43,359 bases of DNA, taken from the NCBI GenBank assembly GCA_003249095.1, contig QBMS01000021.1:1-43359 (forward strand), given 5' to 3'. Shown piece by piece: positions 3,024-42,855 of this stretch (within the stretch, counting starts at the first letter, position 1; each line of letters starts with the position of its first letter). The position numbers and the translations under genes are program-made. The DNA comes from Snowella sp. GTDB taxonomy: Bacteria; Cyanobacteriota; Cyanobacteriia; Cyanobacteriales; Microcystaceae. A model generated the notes under the pieces. It made no database searches. It was not told the DNA's origin and worked only from the letters and a program-made list of their open reading frames with translations.

Positions 3024-4190
3024 TTAACCAATTGCAGAAAATTGATCAATGACCTGATCGTTTCCTTGAGTTGCCCAGGTTGCAAAATGTCGAGCTAGGG
3101 GCGGGGCGTAGGCGAGGGGGCTAGTAAATCCCGAAAAGAGGTGAATACCTCCAAGATTTTCGATTTTACCGACTAAAGGGCGACTAGGATCACTAAAAGC
3201 CACTAGGCAATGATGGCAAGTTCCAGGCACATTAGCCAATTGAGGTAATATTTTGGCAATTTGGGAACGAATTTCGGTTTCACTTTGGGTTAAGTCAGGA
3301 ATCATACTTGCATCGGTGATAATCTGGCTGACTTGCCCAAGATAAAAATTACCATCTAAAAACTGAATCGCGCCTGGTTCGGTGATTGCCGCCATGACGT
3401 TAGAGTTGGGGAGCGTCCCATCGGATTCTTTTTCGGGTTGTCTGGCCTGGGCTTCGATTTCTAAGCGTTGCAACACGGCGGGCATTACCAGCGATCGCAG
3501 ACGAATATTGAGGGGCGGTGTCTTGATGACCTGGGCATGACTGAAATACAAAGGAATCGAAATATTGTTAGTCTCTAGGAAAGAACGGCTGAACGCGCCT
3601 GCACAAATCACCGTATTTTCCGATTGATAAGTATTTTTAGCCGTAATAACCCCAATAATTCGCTCATTTTGACGCAATAAATTGAGAACAGGTTCAATGG
3701 CGATCGTTCCCCCCAATCGTAAAAATGCCTGTAGATAGGCCCTGGTCGTTTTTTGGGCATGAATATGACCGTGAGCCACCGTTAAAACCCCTGCAATTTC
3801 ATTACAGTTGAGTAGCGGTTCTAGTTCAATAGCCTTTTCAACGGTTAAATAATCGGGGGGATTAAGGCAATTAGCATAATTTTGACGGATAGTTTCAGGA
3901 TCACGATCCTGGGGAATCGTTAAGACTAAATTCAGTTCTCGATATTCCGTTTCTCCGTCCAATTCCTGGGAAAGATTACCAAGAATGTGTTTAGACTCCT
4001 GACAAAGTTGGCGAGTTAAGGGCGTACTACCTGACCAATAGGCAACCCCACCGTAGCTATAGTAAGTTGCACTGTGCGGATTTTTTTCCTTTTCTAATAA
4101 GAGAACGTGTAATCCCTGTTTTGCTAATTCATAGGCCAGGGCTGCCCCCGTAATGCCGGCCCCGACCACAATCCAATCATAGGTTTTCAT
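3024..4190 (-). CDS. FAD-dependent amino-acid oxidase/dehydrogenase-like protein (DAO family)
   Basis: A soluble flavoprotein of 388 aa. The N-terminus has the Rossmann dinucleotide motif GAGITG at residues 11-16, within a strand-turn-helix that ends in LLLEKE. The rest fits the DAO fold (glycine oxidase, sarcosine oxidase and D-amino-acid dehydrogenase relatives), including the second FAD-contacting strand (NTVICAGAFSRSFL) and the C-terminal LVAFSDPSRPLVGKIENLGGI segment. These enzymes oxidise a primary or secondary amine to an imine and reduce FAD. The substrate cannot be read from the sequence. The gene converges on the acyltransferase gene and lies about 65 nt 3' of topA on the same strand. 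Confidence 0.75.
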   Translation of the reverse strand: MKTYDWIVVGAGITGAALAYELAKQGLHVLLLEKEKNPHSATYYSYGGVAYWSGSTPLTRQLCQESKHILGNLSQELDGETEYRELNLVLTIPQDRDPETIRQNYANCLNPPDYLTVEKAIELEPLLNCNEIAGVLTVAHGHIHAQKTTRAYLQAFLRLGGTIAIEPVLNLLRQNERIIGVITAKNTYQSENTVICAGAFSRSFLETNNISIPLYFSHAQVIKTPPLNIRLRSLVMPAVLQRLEIEAQARQPEKESDGTLPNSNVMAAITEPGAIQFLDGNFYLGQVSQIITDASMIPDLTQSETEIRSQIAKILPQLANVPGTCHHCLVAFSDPSRPLVGKIENLGGIHLFSGFTSPLAYAPPLARHFATWATQGNDQVIDQFSAIG

Positions 4191-34097: not shown

Positions 34098-35762
34098 ATG
34101 AATCAATGTCTTAATCCCGATTGTTTAGCGGTCAATCTCGAAACTCATCGTTTTTGTCAGCAATGCGGTCAAAAGCTCTGGTTAAAAGACCGTTACCAAG
34201 CCCTGAAACTCATTGGTCAAGGTGGTTTTGGGAAAACTTTCTTGGCGATCGACCACGATAAGCCCTCTAAACCCCAGTGTGTGATCAAGCAATTTTTTCC
34301 CCAAGGTCAGGGAACGAGCGGCTTGCAAAAAGCGGCAGAACTCTTTGCCGAAGAAGCCAAGCGTTTGGATGAATTGGGTAAGCATCCCCAAATTCCTGAG
34401 TTATTAGCCTATTTTATCCATGAGGATAAGCGTCAATATTTGGTACAGGAATATATTGAAGGGCAAAATTTAGAGCAGGAGTTAAAAAGTCAGGGAAATT
34501 TTAATCAGGACAAAATTCGCGCTCTATTGCTTGATTTATTGCCCGTTCTCGATTTTATCCATCAGCGTCAAGTGATTCATCGAGATATTAAGCCCGAAAA
34601 CATTATTCGCAGAGCGCAAGATAATAAACTGGTTTTAGTGGATTTTGGAGCGGCAAAGGCAGTAACGCCTGTTAATCGGTCAGTCACGGGAACGATGATT
34701 GGTTCGGCGGAGTATGTGGCTCCTGAGCAGATGAATGGAAAGGCGGTTAATGCCAGCGATTTGTATAGTTTGGGGGTGACTTGTCTTTATTTGTTGACAG
34801 GAATTTCACCCTTTGATTTGTTTGATGTGGGGGAACACGAATGGATTTGGCGAGATTATTTGGTGAATAATTCGGTCAGTGATGATCTGGGAAATATTCT
34901 CGATAAATTGGTTATTTTTGGAACTAAAAGACGTTATCAGGACGTTAAAGACGTTTTAGGCGATTTAGAGTTAAAAACAATCACTCAAATCCAGGTTCCA
35001 TCTCCAATCCTTACTATTCCTGCCTCTCCTCGTCCCTCAGTTTCCTCTTCTCAAGCTCTGATTGAAACTCTTCCTGGTGGTATCAAATTAGAAATGGTCA
35101 TGTTACCCGCAGGTAGTTTTATGATGGGGTCGGATGATTATGATGATGAAAAACCTAGACATCAAGTAACCCTTAAGGAATTTGCGATCGGAAAATATCC
35201 TGTTACCCAAGAACAATATCAAGCAATTATGGGTAATAATACATCACATTTTAAGAATAATCCTACAAATCCTGTTGAGGAGGTAAGTTGGAATGATTCT
35301 CAAGCTTTTTGTCAAAAAATAAACCAAAAAACGGGAAAAAAATACAGATTACCCAGTGAAGCGGAATGGGAATATGCTTGTCGAGCAGGAACTCAAACCC
35401 GTTATTATTTTGGAGACAATGAAAAGCAGTTGGGGGAATATGCTTGGTACAGCGAAAATTCAGGCTCAAAAACCCATCCAGTCGGGCAAAAAAAGCCAAA
35501 TGACTGGGGATTGTATGACATGAGTGGAAATGTGCGGGAATGGTGCGGCGATAGTTGGCATGATAACTACAAAAAAGCCCCAACGGATGGAAGTAGTTGG
35601 AATGATAATCATTCTGAATCTAGTCCTAGAACGCTGCGGGGTGGTTCTTGGTACGACAATTCGAGGTACTGTCGCTCGGCGAATCGCATTAGGTGCCTTG
35701 CTGATGTTCGTTACTACGATATCGGTTTTCGGGTTGTCTGTGCCGTCCGAGGGTCTGTTTAG
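34098..35762 (+). CDS. Zinc-ribbon Ser/Thr kinase fused to an FGE-sulfatase domain; possible DGR target
   Basis: A 554-aa fusion. Residues 1-27 form a ribbon (C4, C9, C20, C23). The kinase spans about 32-290: glycine loop IGQGGFGKTFLA, lysine K64, HRDIKPEN with D163, DFG at 182-184 and APE at 208-210, so it should be active. A Ser/Pro linker leads to an FGE-sulfatase/C-type-lectin-like domain (about 328-554; MVMLPAGSFMMGS, YPVTQEQYQAIMG, YRLPSEAEWEYACRAGT, DMSGNVREW). The end (LRGGSW ... GFRVVC) looks like a variable region of a diversity-generating retroelement: residues 519-541 are rich in NNY codons. Only one of the two FGE catalytic cysteines is matched (C525; D520 at the other), so formylglycine formation is unlikely. 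Confidence 0.85.
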   Translation: MNQCLNPDCLAVNLETHRFCQQCGQKLWLKDRYQALKLIGQGGFGKTFLAIDHDKPSKPQCVIKQFFPQGQGTSGLQKAAELFAEEAKRLDELGKHPQIPELLAYFIHEDKRQYLVQEYIEGQNLEQELKSQGNFNQDKIRALLLDLLPVLDFIHQRQVIHRDIKPENIIRRAQDNKLVLVDFGAAKAVTPVNRSVTGTMIGSAEYVAPEQMNGKAVNASDLYSLGVTCLYLLTGISPFDLFDVGEHEWIWRDYLVNNSVSDDLGNILDKLVIFGTKRRYQDVKDVLGDLELKTITQIQVPSPILTIPASPRPSVSSSQALIETLPGGIKLEMVMLPAGSFMMGSDDYDDEKPRHQVTLKEFAIGKYPVTQEQYQAIMGNNTSHFKNNPTNPVEEVSWNDSQAFCQKINQKTGKKYRLPSEAEWEYACRAGTQTRYYFGDNEKQLGEYAWYSENSGSKTHPVGQKKPNDWGLYDMSGNVREWCGDSWHDNYKKAPTDGSSWNDNHSESSPRTLRGGSWYDNSRYCRSANRIRCLADVRYYDIGFRVVCAVRGSV

Positions 35763-35976
35763 CAGCAATTCTGATTATGGAATTTTGGGATGAATTTATT
35801 GAGAATGGTCGCAATAACGATCTCCAAAAGCCTCATTTTTTCGTTATGAGATTATTTCATAGGGGGTGTCTCGTGGTCAAAATGAGAATTGCTGTCTGTT
35901 TAGCCCTTTGCTCTTTTGCCCTCTTGCCCTTTGCCAACCCAACGCCGCCGTAGGTTGGATCGATTTTTTTCCGTAG

Positions 35977-35997
35977 GGACATAATACTGTTATGTCC
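35977..35997. repeat. REP-like hairpin, family B
   Basis: Arms GGACATAA (35977-35984) and TTATGTCC (35990-35997) around loop TACTG, preceded by CCGTAG. First hairpin of the cluster around the RAYT gene. Confidence 0.8.
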
Positions 35998-36026
35998 TTA
36001 ACCCCTCAATCACCAACAGAAAACCC

Positions 36027-36180
36027 AATAAAAACCCAAACCGATCATATAAATTAGGACACAATATTCAGGACATAATGGTATTATGTCCCTACAGGAA
36101 ACATGATTTACTTTAATTCCTAATCGCCAATAAAAAAATCAATAAAAACCCAAACCGATCATATAAATCAGGACATAATA
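36027..36180 (+). repeat. 40-bp direct duplication with a 114-bp period
   Basis: 36027-36066 and 36141-36180 match at 38 of 40 positions by eye (beginning AATAAAAACCCAAACCGATC). The second copy ends in a REP half-site (GGACATAATA) without its right arm. The hairpin at 36071-36091 lies between them, so a composite unit was duplicated in tandem and one copy then lost half its palindrome. Confidence 0.75.
36071..36091. repeat. REP-like hairpin, family B
   Basis: Nine-base arms GGACATAAT (36071-36079) and ATTATGTCC (36083-36091) around loop GGT, followed by CTAC. Identical to the copy at 37038-37058. Confidence 0.85.
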
Positions 36181-36273
36181 ATAGGGTGGGTAAAAACATG
36201 ATTTAACAGTTCTGAATCTTTTATCACTCAAGAGAATTAGGGAATGATTGGCTTAAAGGAAACGTTAAGATTA

Positions 36274-36294
36274 GGACATAACAGTGTTATGTCC
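36274..36294. repeat. REP-like hairpin, family B, just upstream of the RAYT gene
   Basis: Arms GGACATAAC (36274-36282) and GTTATGTCC (36286-36294) around loop AGT. The last arm base differs from the other copies on both sides (C:G instead of T:A), keeping the pair. It lies 43 nt before the RAYT start. Confidence 0.85.
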
Positions 36295-36336
36295 CTACGA
36301 GAAATGTGAAGATTATAGAAAAACCATGATTTAACC

Positions 36337-36903
36337 ATGTCGTATAATCCAGAGATACATCATCGCCAAGCTATTCGTTTAAAAAATTATGATTACAGCC
36401 AAGCAGGAGCATATTTTATTACAATTTGTACCAAACAAAAACAATGTATATTTGGGGACATCAAAAACGGAAAAATGCGATTCAATGCCTTGGGTTCTAT
36501 AGCGGATAAATATTGGCAAGAAATTCCTGAACATTTTCCGAATGTAGCCCTAGATGTTTATACAATCATGCCCAACCATCTACACGGGATATTGTTGATT
36601 ATTGAATCTTCCCAAAATAATAATAAAAATAGAAAATTTGGTGATATTGTTATAGGTTCAATTTCTAGCATCGTTCGTTCCTATAAAGCGATTGTCACAA
36701 AAAAAATCAATAAGATCTGTAATACAAAAGGCTTATCTGTAGTTTGGCAAAGTCGATATTATGAGCAAATTGTTCGAGATGAACAAGCCTTAATCAATAT
36801 TAAAAGTTATATTATTAATAATCCGTTGAATTGGGATATAGATGAAGAAAATCCTAAAATTGATCAATATCAACACGATGTTTTATTAGATTTACCTTTT
36901 TGA
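36337..36903 (+). CDS. REP-associated tyrosine transposase (RAYT, Y1/HUH family)
   Basis: A 188-aa single-strand DNA transposase. It starts with the family's RLKNYDYSQAGAYFITICTK, has the metal-binding HUH motif in TIMPNHLHGILLI (about 78-90) and the probable catalytic tyrosine in VVWQSRYYEQIVRDEQALINI (about 145-165), followed by the usual YIINNPLNW. The frame is intact and full length. RAYTs nick REP hairpins and are thought to spread them. This one is flanked on both sides by hairpins of a single sequence family, the expected arrangement for a transposase still beside its substrate. The composition is AT-rich relative to the metabolic genes nearby. Confidence 0.92.
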   Translation: MSYNPEIHHRQAIRLKNYDYSQAGAYFITICTKQKQCIFGDIKNGKMRFNALGSIADKYWQEIPEHFPNVALDVYTIMPNHLHGILLIIESSQNNNKNRKFGDIVIGSISSIVRSYKAIVTKKINKICNTKGLSVVWQSRYYEQIVRDEQALINIKSYIINNPLNWDIDEENPKIDQYQHDVLLDLPF

Positions 36904-40953: not shown

Positions 40954-42855
40954 TCATAACAACTCTTTTTCAATTTCTTCCCGTACAGTACTGGTGATTT
41001 CACTATTAGAATTTAAACAATCGCGGAGTAACTGATTAATTTCATGATAATTTTCCAAAACTTCCTGTTGTTTTGGCGTAAAATTCCAGTCAGTTAATTG
41101 AGATAAAGTTTTTAATAAAGACTGATGAGACAATATTAAAAATTCCTGTAAATGGTGATCGTCCATCATCAGTTCATCAACCTTTTTTTTCATTAATAAA
41201 ACTAGAAGATCGGCTTTTCTTAGCATTACGGCAGTTAGGAGAAAAATTTCTCGCCAACGGGGTTCTAAAACATGATTAATTAATTCTTCTAAAGCTTCTT
41301 CTAGGGATTTTAGATAGGAATTCATAATGATATTACGAGCCGTAAAATATTCATGAAAAGCTAAATGGGAAAAGGAAAATATGCCTCGACTTCGTTCCGT
41401 TAATAGTCCATGCTGTAAGGCGATCGCTTTGAGAATCTCTTCACTAGCCAACTGTAATTCTTCCGAGTCTATGGGAACATCCGATAACTCACATAAATAA
41501 TCACTGATATATTGCTCAATGGTGCGTTTTTCAAAAAAATATTCTCCCCGCTCAAAGGTTTTTATGGCAATTTCACTCAAAAGTTTTAGTTTTTGAGGGA
41601 GCGTAAATACTGGTCTAATACTATCTCGTTCAACACCTCGAATTTCATCCCATTTACCTAATAATAGGTCTAAACATTGCTTATAAAATTCACTTTCTGA
41701 GCCAGGAAATTGGCCTTGATGAACAAAGATCCAACACGCCAGATGGAGAAATAACGGTGTAGTGGCTAACTGACGAAGTCGCAAATTTTCGGGCAACTCT
41801 AACAATTGAATAAACTCAACTGCCTGCTGATGGGCATCCTCGGTCGGATTTTTAATTAAGGTAGCAAACCACTTTTGGGAAAATTCGGTAATTTGTTCCG
41901 AGGTAAAAGGAGCAGTTTCAACATCAATAAATCCATTGAGATTATGAATTTTTCCTGCCGTTCGACAAGTAATAATGAATAAATTTTTATGATACTTTTC
42001 TGTAAATCGATTAATTTCTTGATAAACAGCATTAGCATCAAGAGTTAAAACTTCATCTAGCCCATCTAATAATAAAAAAATGCGGCCTTCACAAAGTAAA
42101 TTTTCAACCGTAGAGGGATTGGTGATACTAGAAGCCAAAAATTCAGAACGAATATAATTTAAAAAACTAACTTCCCCTGTTTCTTTAGATTCTTCTACAA
42201 AACTTTTGAGGGTAATAAAAATAGGGACTCGATTCTCCATAAAAATTCCCCGATTGCACTGGAGCGCGAGATGTTGTAAGAAAGTTGTTTTTCCTGTGCC
42301 TGGATTGCCTAAAATCCTGATTTTGTTATAATTTTCTACCAGTTTTCTCCCTGTGATCCATCGTTGAAATAGTTCACTTAAACCGATAGACTGAAATTCC
42401 TGGGGAGTCAGATTTTGCAGTTGTGCTAACTCTAACCATTGTTGGGAAGGGATTTCTTCTAATAGATTTATGTCGATATAAATTTTGTCTAGGTTTATGG
42501 GACGGTTAATATCTAATAATTTTAACGTTCCACATTGGTCTTCAATTTTATCCTGACGCTGCGATCGCACCTGTTGAACCAGACACTCAATATCAGGTAG
42601 CCCATGTTCGTCGTATTCTGGAATGTCATCAGGGGGATTTTCGGCAATTTCCCGCCAATTTAATTCCAAAATAGAGCAAATTTCCACAAAAATATAACGT
42701 TCAATCGGTCTTCCCGTAAAAAATCTCCAAATTGGTTGCCGAGTTTTGAGATTAACTTCAAAAGCGAGGTTTTCTTGAGTCCAACCCTTACGACTAAAGG
42801 CCGTTTTCGCTTTTCTAATCCCAGAGGAAGATGCGTAAAGCGATCGTTTTGCCAT
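40954..42855 (-). CDS. NACHT-domain STAND NTPase with N-terminal helix-turn-helix
   Basis: A 633-aa signal-transduction ATPase. The N-terminal 75 residues resemble a DNA-binding or adaptor helix-turn-helix common in cyanobacterial NACHT proteins (KAFSRKGWTQENLAFEVNL-like segment, residues about 17-36). The NACHT core has Walker A GNPGTGKT (183-190), Walker B LLLDGLDEV (261-269), and FIITCRTAG plus the winged-helix segment FSFSHLAFHEYFTARNI. The C-terminal 130 residues are helical with no obvious repeats and would be the sensor or output domain. Bacterial NACHT proteins of this size act in phage defence. No effector such as a nuclease or TIR is attached or adjacent. Confidence 0.85.
   Translation of the reverse strand: MAKRSLYASSSGIRKAKTAFSRKGWTQENLAFEVNLKTRQPIWRFFTGRPIERYIFVEICSILELNWREIAENPPDDIPEYDEHGLPDIECLVQQVRSQRQDKIEDQCGTLKLLDINRPINLDKIYIDINLLEEIPSQQWLELAQLQNLTPQEFQSIGLSELFQRWITGRKLVENYNKIRILGNPGTGKTTFLQHLALQCNRGIFMENRVPIFITLKSFVEESKETGEVSFLNYIRSEFLASSITNPSTVENLLCEGRIFLLLDGLDEVLTLDANAVYQEINRFTEKYHKNLFIITCRTAGKIHNLNGFIDVETAPFTSEQITEFSQKWFATLIKNPTEDAHQQAVEFIQLLELPENLRLRQLATTPLFLHLACWIFVHQGQFPGSESEFYKQCLDLLLGKWDEIRGVERDSIRPVFTLPQKLKLLSEIAIKTFERGEYFFEKRTIEQYISDYLCELSDVPIDSEELQLASEEILKAIALQHGLLTERSRGIFSFSHLAFHEYFTARNIIMNSYLKSLEEALEELINHVLEPRWREIFLLTAVMLRKADLLVLLMKKKVDELMMDDHHLQEFLILSHQSLLKTLSQLTDWNFTPKQQEVLENYHEINQLLRDCLNSNSEITSTVREEIEKELL

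Follow-up and report, generated by a model that had tools for sequence, protein, structure and literature searches.

Does the 3′ end of a kinase gene in this cyanobacterial genome derive from a diversity-generating retroelement (DGR), and is it still being rewritten by one? The question is raised by the window analysed here, a stretch of DNA of 43,359 nt on contig C133 of the source genome, G000, which is a draft assembly of 4.607 Mb in 237 contigs with a completeness of 99.98%. An earlier note on this DNA had described a kinase fused to a domain of the formylglycine-generating enzyme (FGE) type, with a DGR-like variable region (VR) frame at the C-terminus. On re-reading the sequence, its coordinates, frame and residue numbers for this open reading frame (ORF) proved correct, and the fusion was borne out by the two Pfam domains listed below. 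The features of the gene are as follows.

34098..35762, + strand: ORF of 554 aa, 4-Cys-prefix Ser/Thr kinase with a C-terminal FGE-type C-type lectin (CLec) domain
34194..34817, + strand: protein kinase domain, residues 33-240 (Pfam PF00069, E 1.5e-38)
35091..35738, + strand: FGE-sulfatase / CLec domain, residues 332-547 (PF03781, E 4.7e-55)
35637..35741, + strand: candidate DGR-type VR, residues 514-548, at the 3′ end of the gene (match to the template repeat of genome G204; codon pattern)
35652..35720, + strand: stretch with 13 NNY codons, residues 519-541 (13/13 NNY also in the closest homologue)

The RGGSW motif starts at residue 514 (35637), and the last ~35 codons of the ORF share their frame with the variable regions of cyanobacterial DGRs. 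Targets of such DGRs carry the VR at the 3′ terminus of a gene with a CLec domain, and this arrangement is present in 34098-35762. PADLOC matched the kinase part to PD-T4-6 with 434 bits; the kinase was not assigned to that system, and 35 models match it.

Around the gene, an inverted repeat at 35763-35779/35878-35894 (17 nt, 88% complementary, 98 nt apart) lies directly after the stop codon and is perhaps a small inserted element. It was rejected as a homing hairpin on account of its 98-nt spacing, unlike that of a hairpin beside a VR. Three related palindromic repeats (GGACATAA...TTATGTCC) at 35967-36304 lie upstream of an ORF resembling a REP-associated tyrosine transposase (36337-36903, + strand; NF047646 at 61 bits, below the 80-bit cut-off), and a NACHT-domain protein (PF05729, NCH2) is encoded on the opposite strand at 40954-42855 (−), ~5 kb from the kinase. 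A promoter and terminator scan gave no excess over shuffles.

Codon pattern and closest homologue

The case for a VR had been made from codons of the form NNY. At residues 519-521, 524, 529, 531, 533, 534, 536, 537 and 539-541 the gene reads TAC GAC AAT TAC AAT ATT TGC CTT GAT GTT TAC TAC GAT, and all 13 of the named sites are indeed NNY codons. The naive chance of this outcome is P = 3e-4, whereas the chance given the residues is P = 0.149 (calculated for the I, L and V codons from the codon use in 16 window ORFs). The count thus overstates the case, because codons for Y, D, N and C, which account for 10 of the 13 residues, always end in C or T, and only those for I, L and V are informative. 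Rows of aligned FGE sequences were compared at the same sites, with duplicates and rows with <12 aligned sites left out and no row being like a template repeat (TR) by the cut used. All sites were NNY in 0 of 11 non-cyanobacterial rows, 1 of 6 paralogues from the source genome, 4 of 15 cyanobacterial rows retrieved at the protein level, 7 of 11 rows located beside matches to DGR reverse transcriptases (RTs), and 37 of 56 rows found by DNA similarity to the kinase-FGE VR, the last being a biased set. In view of the conditional P value and the protein-found cyanobacterial rows, the NNY count was rejected as sufficient proof of a DGR origin. The same two figures favour an alternative explanation, namely that no DGR ever rewrote the tip in this lineage and that its sequence reflects normal divergence of a surface that binds ligands, in an FGE-fold family that hosts DGRs elsewhere. 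We regard this explanation as unlikely; the complete lack of all-NNY rows among the 11 non-cyanobacterial sequences speaks against it.

The closest homologue is located in a sister genome, G049 (7.87 Mb in a single contig), at L152:2700-4463, and has the same Pfam architecture (Pkinase and FGE). From the kinase identity it is a putative orthologue of the kinase-FGE gene; the ORFs flanking the two homologues are unlike by eye. Amino acid identity between them is 0.87 for the kinase, 0.70 for the FGE domain and 0.73 for the VR frame. At the 13 sites it is 0.31; there, 4 of the 13 residues are common to both, and the codons of the homologue are again NNY in 13 of 13 cases. Residues differ at 9 of the 13 sites, a higher proportion than in the FGE domain (55 of 183, p = 0.006) or the VR frame (6 of 22, p = 0.019). 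The ratio of changes at codon positions 1+2 to those at position 3 is 11:4 at the sites and 70:84 in the FGE domain (p = 0.036), so that the sites show the bias towards positions 1 and 2 that characterises AAY-derived codons of DGR targets. That 9 of 13 sites are changed, yet 26 of the 26 codons of the two homologues are NNY, argues against ordinary divergence. On the other side, further stretches of the FGE domain are equally divergent, which fits a tip that was never rewritten: 11 of 161 FGE windows of 23 residues are as divergent as the VR, and its excess of position-1+2 changes is reached by 3 of the 161.

Foreign templates for the variable region

A search with the VR covered 388 genomes of the order and gave matches in 61, and 16 distinct A-rich, TR-like sequences were present among the loci retrieved. 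The TR of genome G204 lies just downstream of a kinase-FGE gene (L148). This target is a kinase-FGE fusion like the gene described here, and its TR, RGGSWNNNPRNCRSANRNRNNPGNRNNNIGFRVA, shares the VR frame; TR, RT and Avd occur in the same genome in G204, whereas none of them was found in G000. The TR and the kinase-FGE target of G204 are on one contig (C5, L148), and its DGR RT and Avd are on another (C54).

Two genomes provided positive controls. In G204, the VR and TR differ at 16 positions, 15 of which are TR adenines and the other the last base compared, and in G333, which has a TIR-FGE target with RT and TR, 14 of 14 VR-TR differences are at adenines. When searched against the source genome, the G204 TR matched the kinase-FGE VR with 78% identity along 104 bp (E 1.4e-17), whereas its second-best match had E 0.95. 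Relative to this template, the VR is changed at 13 of 27 A sites and at 10 of 45 other sites (p = 0.022), and it retains the third bases of AAY codons in 11 of 12 cases, a degree of retention that argues against a tip never rewritten. The other five foreign TRs gave p values of 0.10-0.26, with third bases retained in 6-8 of 11 cases, so that five of the six foreign-TR tests were non-significant, as would be expected if no rewriting had occurred here. This A-site comparison used six of seven TR-like segments (L138, which is gapped, was left out), and the paralogues C1 and C204 gave no segment. For the best foreign TR, that of G204, 13 of 23 mismatches are at TR adenines, compared with a published criterion of >80%, in a comparison for which only foreign TRs are available. 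Within-genome TR/VR identity, the criterion used in the accessible part of PMC7517822, has no counterpart here, since no DGR was found in the source genome.

One of the source genome's own paralogues, C162, matches the performance of the VR on the A-site measure (p 0.007-0.063), although no more than 4-7 of its third bases, out of 11-12, are retained; for L048 and L055, two VRs of G049, the number retained relative to foreign TRs is 8-11. Because the templates were found with the kinase-FGE VR as query, the foreign-template comparison supports descent from such a template and does not prove it. Third-position divergence is lower in the VR than in the domain when the gene is compared with the targets of G204 (0.24 vs 0.58, p = 2e-4) and G333 (0.26 vs 0.57, p = 9e-4), both of which had been chosen by VR similarity. 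Over 102 alignments of mixed origin, with short alignments left out, mean divergence at the three codon positions was 0.32/0.29/0.56 in the domain and 0.50/0.37/0.51 in the VR. The DGR type of other genomes of the family was rejected as donor, as their six TR-like sequences have a non-A identity of 0.71-0.77, compared with 0.83 for G204; as a caveat on this comparison, the outside-family TR-like sequences L126 and L164 fit no better (0.76 and 0.73), and G204 and similar genomes were themselves chosen by VR similarity.

Retroelement machinery in the source and sister genomes

As had been noted before, the window contains neither a DGR RT nor a template that could be found by profile, VR DNA and TR searches. 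The accompanying proposal, that the target would be served in trans, is not supported for the present day, as a search of the whole of G000 also found neither a DGR RT nor a template repeat. An RT query from G027, where the TR lies just downstream of that RT, gave 0 matches in the source genome at E <= 1e-5 and identified full-length DGR RTs (at least 66% identity) in 7 of 50 family genomes; a G333 RT query likewise gave 0 matches in the source genome at E <= 1e-3. The single RVT_1 match in G000 (C235:285-776, L001; AbiA-like, 109.9 bits, below the 250-bit cut-off) was rejected as a DGR RT, being AbiA-like by both NCBIfam and PADLOC. Avd gave 0 matches in the source genome with NF033474, a model that scored above its cut-off in 5 of 5 DGR-bearing genomes (7 genomes searched). 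Searches with VR DNA, a foreign TR and a TR pattern revealed no template repeat in G000 (the pattern gave 0 matches in both G000 and G049), nor was a same-genome TR with >50% identity found there, the criterion for remote variable proteins. No avd or RT remnant was detected in the window or at the loci of the own paralogues, and a gene with no cassette remnant nearby is what a never rewritten tip would predict. VR-like DNA was present in 14 family genomes, with a full-length DGR RT in 5 and none in 9, including G000; since such DNA need not belong to a VR, this count shows just that RT-less carriers are common. In G033, another genome of the family, a DGR RT lies on a second contig at almost the coordinates that it has on a plasmid of Microcystis aeruginosa FD4, which suggests that the family is the one to which Microcystis belongs.

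Because DGR cassettes occur on cyanobacterial plasmids and the assembly is a draft, a target that is still live is conceivable, with RT, Avd and TR residing on a plasmid or an unbinned contig and rewriting the VR in trans. Of 31 matched plasmid records, 6 carry DGR RTs with at least 67% identity; they come from Fischerella, Microcystis (2 records), Nostoc, Anabaena and Acaryochloris. The division of TR plus target and RT plus Avd between contigs in G204, together with the intact ORF and NNY codons of the kinase-FGE gene, also fits a live target. VR DNA itself had one match in plasmids (Acaryochloris, E 2e-5), and DGR-like RTs were present in 72 phage records, all with <60% identity. Set against a live target are the 0 matches to DGR RT, Avd and TR in a 99.98%-complete genome, and the VRs of the four own paralogues tested, which show no homogenisation with the kinase-FGE VR. 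We judge a live target to be quite unlikely, and on the best reading the retroelement is likelier to have been lost than to be located on an unassembled plasmid.

The sister genome retains more of such a system. A truncated avd start (34 aa, 71% identity to the G204 avd) is present in G049 C1 at L150:3432-3533 (−), just downstream of a KAP-FGE VR near 3713. The 8 kb read beside it gave no RT match, and among the G049 RT matches that were read, all were group II-like with at most 30% identity to a DGR RT. This truncated avd without an RT is a decayed DGR cassette. Two G049 VRs, one in the KAP NTPase-FGE gene that this avd follows and the other in a second FGE gene, differ at 16 positions, of which 0 are third positions in 36 codons, as against 29/95 upstream (P = 2e-6). 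The pair looks retrohoming-like, showing the pattern that would be expected from rewriting by one template. The own KAP-FGE paralogue C111 has a third-position divergence from G049a/b/c of 0.21-0.24 in the VR and 0.51-0.53 in the domain (homogenisation p 6e-4 to 1.2e-3, 55 pairs tested). On the strength of the VR homogenisation and truncated avd in G049 and the third-position drop in C111, a DGR of this kind was probably at work in ancestors of G000, and the retrohoming-like signature in G049 and C111 is a further point against a tip never rewritten. For the kinase-FGE VR itself, no homogenisation was detected with the own paralogues C162, C1, C111 and C184 (p 0.14-0.88), a test that covered four of the six own FGE paralogues and not C204 and C153, and that with four G049 genes was not significant (p 0.07-0.57).

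We consider it probable that the 3′ end of the kinase-FGE gene is a former DGR variable region whose retroelement was later lost. Three observations support the DGR origin that had been proposed for the tip, namely the foreign template, the clustering at the 13 sites of differences from the closest homologue, and a fold resembling that of TvpA (see below). In the history envisaged, an ancestral DGR would have copied an AAY-rich template repeat, the copy would have been mutated at adenines and pasted into the kinase-FGE 3′ end as a remote target, and RT, Avd and TR would have been lost afterwards, leaving the last variant fixed.

The source genome encodes further FGE-tipped proteins, comprising KAP NTPase-FGE fusions on C162 (L154), C1 (L156) and C111 (L157) and, on C184 (L155), a TIR ORF that adjoins an FGE ORF. 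As a set these proteins are conflict-system-like, and the genome that encodes them yielded no DGR. A more speculative proposal, which we hold to be improbable, is that the FGE-tipped effectors (the kinase, the three KAP NTPases and the TIR/FGE pair) form a frozen repertoire that is diversified when a DGR plasmid visits. If this were true, diversification would be a transferable and intermittent service, not a resident function.

Fold, inferred function and known systems

The best PDB match of the domain, both by sequence (E 1.6e-45) and by fold, was 2y3c, the DGR target TvpA of Treponema denticola. The domain model (mean pLDDT 78.7, and ~60 over VR residues 521-530) matched TvpA with a TM score of 0.86 by query length, with PvdO and FGE enzymes ranking after it. 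The Pfam FGE-sulfatase match, and fold matches that include human and bacterial FGE, are consistent with another reading, that of a catalytically active formylglycine-generating enzyme or related oxidase whose active site would account for the C-terminal pattern. In an alignment to 2aft (the C336S mutant), Asp520 aligns with Cys336 of human FGE and Cys525 with Cys341, Cys336 and Cys341 being the active-site pair of the human enzyme, and the earlier placement of D520 at one FGE cysteine position is thereby confirmed. The closest homologue has Val at the Cys336 position, and TvpA ranks first among the structural matches. With Asp520 in place of the first FGE cysteine, we regard the enzyme reading as very improbable. 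Without the FGE cysteine pair, the FGE-fold domain would be a putative ligand- or protein-binding sensor, which may control the attached Ser/Thr kinase. Control of a kinase by a CLec domain is a hypothesis put forward in the accessible part of PMC7517822.

Descriptions of remnant and remote DGR targets exist in the literature, and little was found there on how or when the retroelement is lost; our literature search yielded no paper on orphan remote variable regions. The kinase gene, its G049 homologue and the G049 truncated avd allow a target, homogenised sister VRs and a decayed cassette to be read side by side. The case thus makes it possible to ask whether a diversified sensor tip is still under selection after diversification ends. 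If the cassette is on a plasmid, the idea of chromosomal sensors served by a mobile diversifier would become testable.

Several known systems resemble the one described here. TvpA, like the kinase-FGE protein, has an FGE-subtype CLec fold with a C-terminal variable region; it is a single-domain protein without a kinase, whereas the protein here is a kinase fusion. In the solved DGR variable proteins described in the accessible text of the source on TvpA (PMC6328139), the diversified residues lie at the surface and make up the binding site. Low-level adenine mutation has been reported in cyanobacterial culture, according to the accessible text of PMC12691664. The DGR-diversified STAND, KAP and TIR targets treated in the available sections of Dore et al. 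2024 (PMC10907252) are putative antigen sensors, and the KAP NTPase and TIR proteins among them carry FGE/CLec tips as the G000 paralogues do; those sensors have DGR loci, whereas none was found in G000.

The nearest parallels are cyanobacterial. In the available sections of PMC7517822, kinases are the commonest CLec partner among cyanobacterial DGR targets, 76 remote targets are reported, and a kinase with a diversified sensing end is already described. The variable proteins presented there carry, as here, a C-terminal CLec domain and VR on a Ser/Thr kinase, with targets dispersed in the genome. The same text describes a remnant VR, all3226, with no RT nearby (Vallota-Eastman et al. 2020, PMC7517822), and suggests that the machinery is removed once a variant is good. 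Like the tip described here, all3226 is a remnant VR without a nearby RT, but its genome has two DGRs, whereas none was found in G000. Targets of the kinase-CLec type, remote ones and a remnant without RT have therefore already been published, and the present case adds to a known kind.
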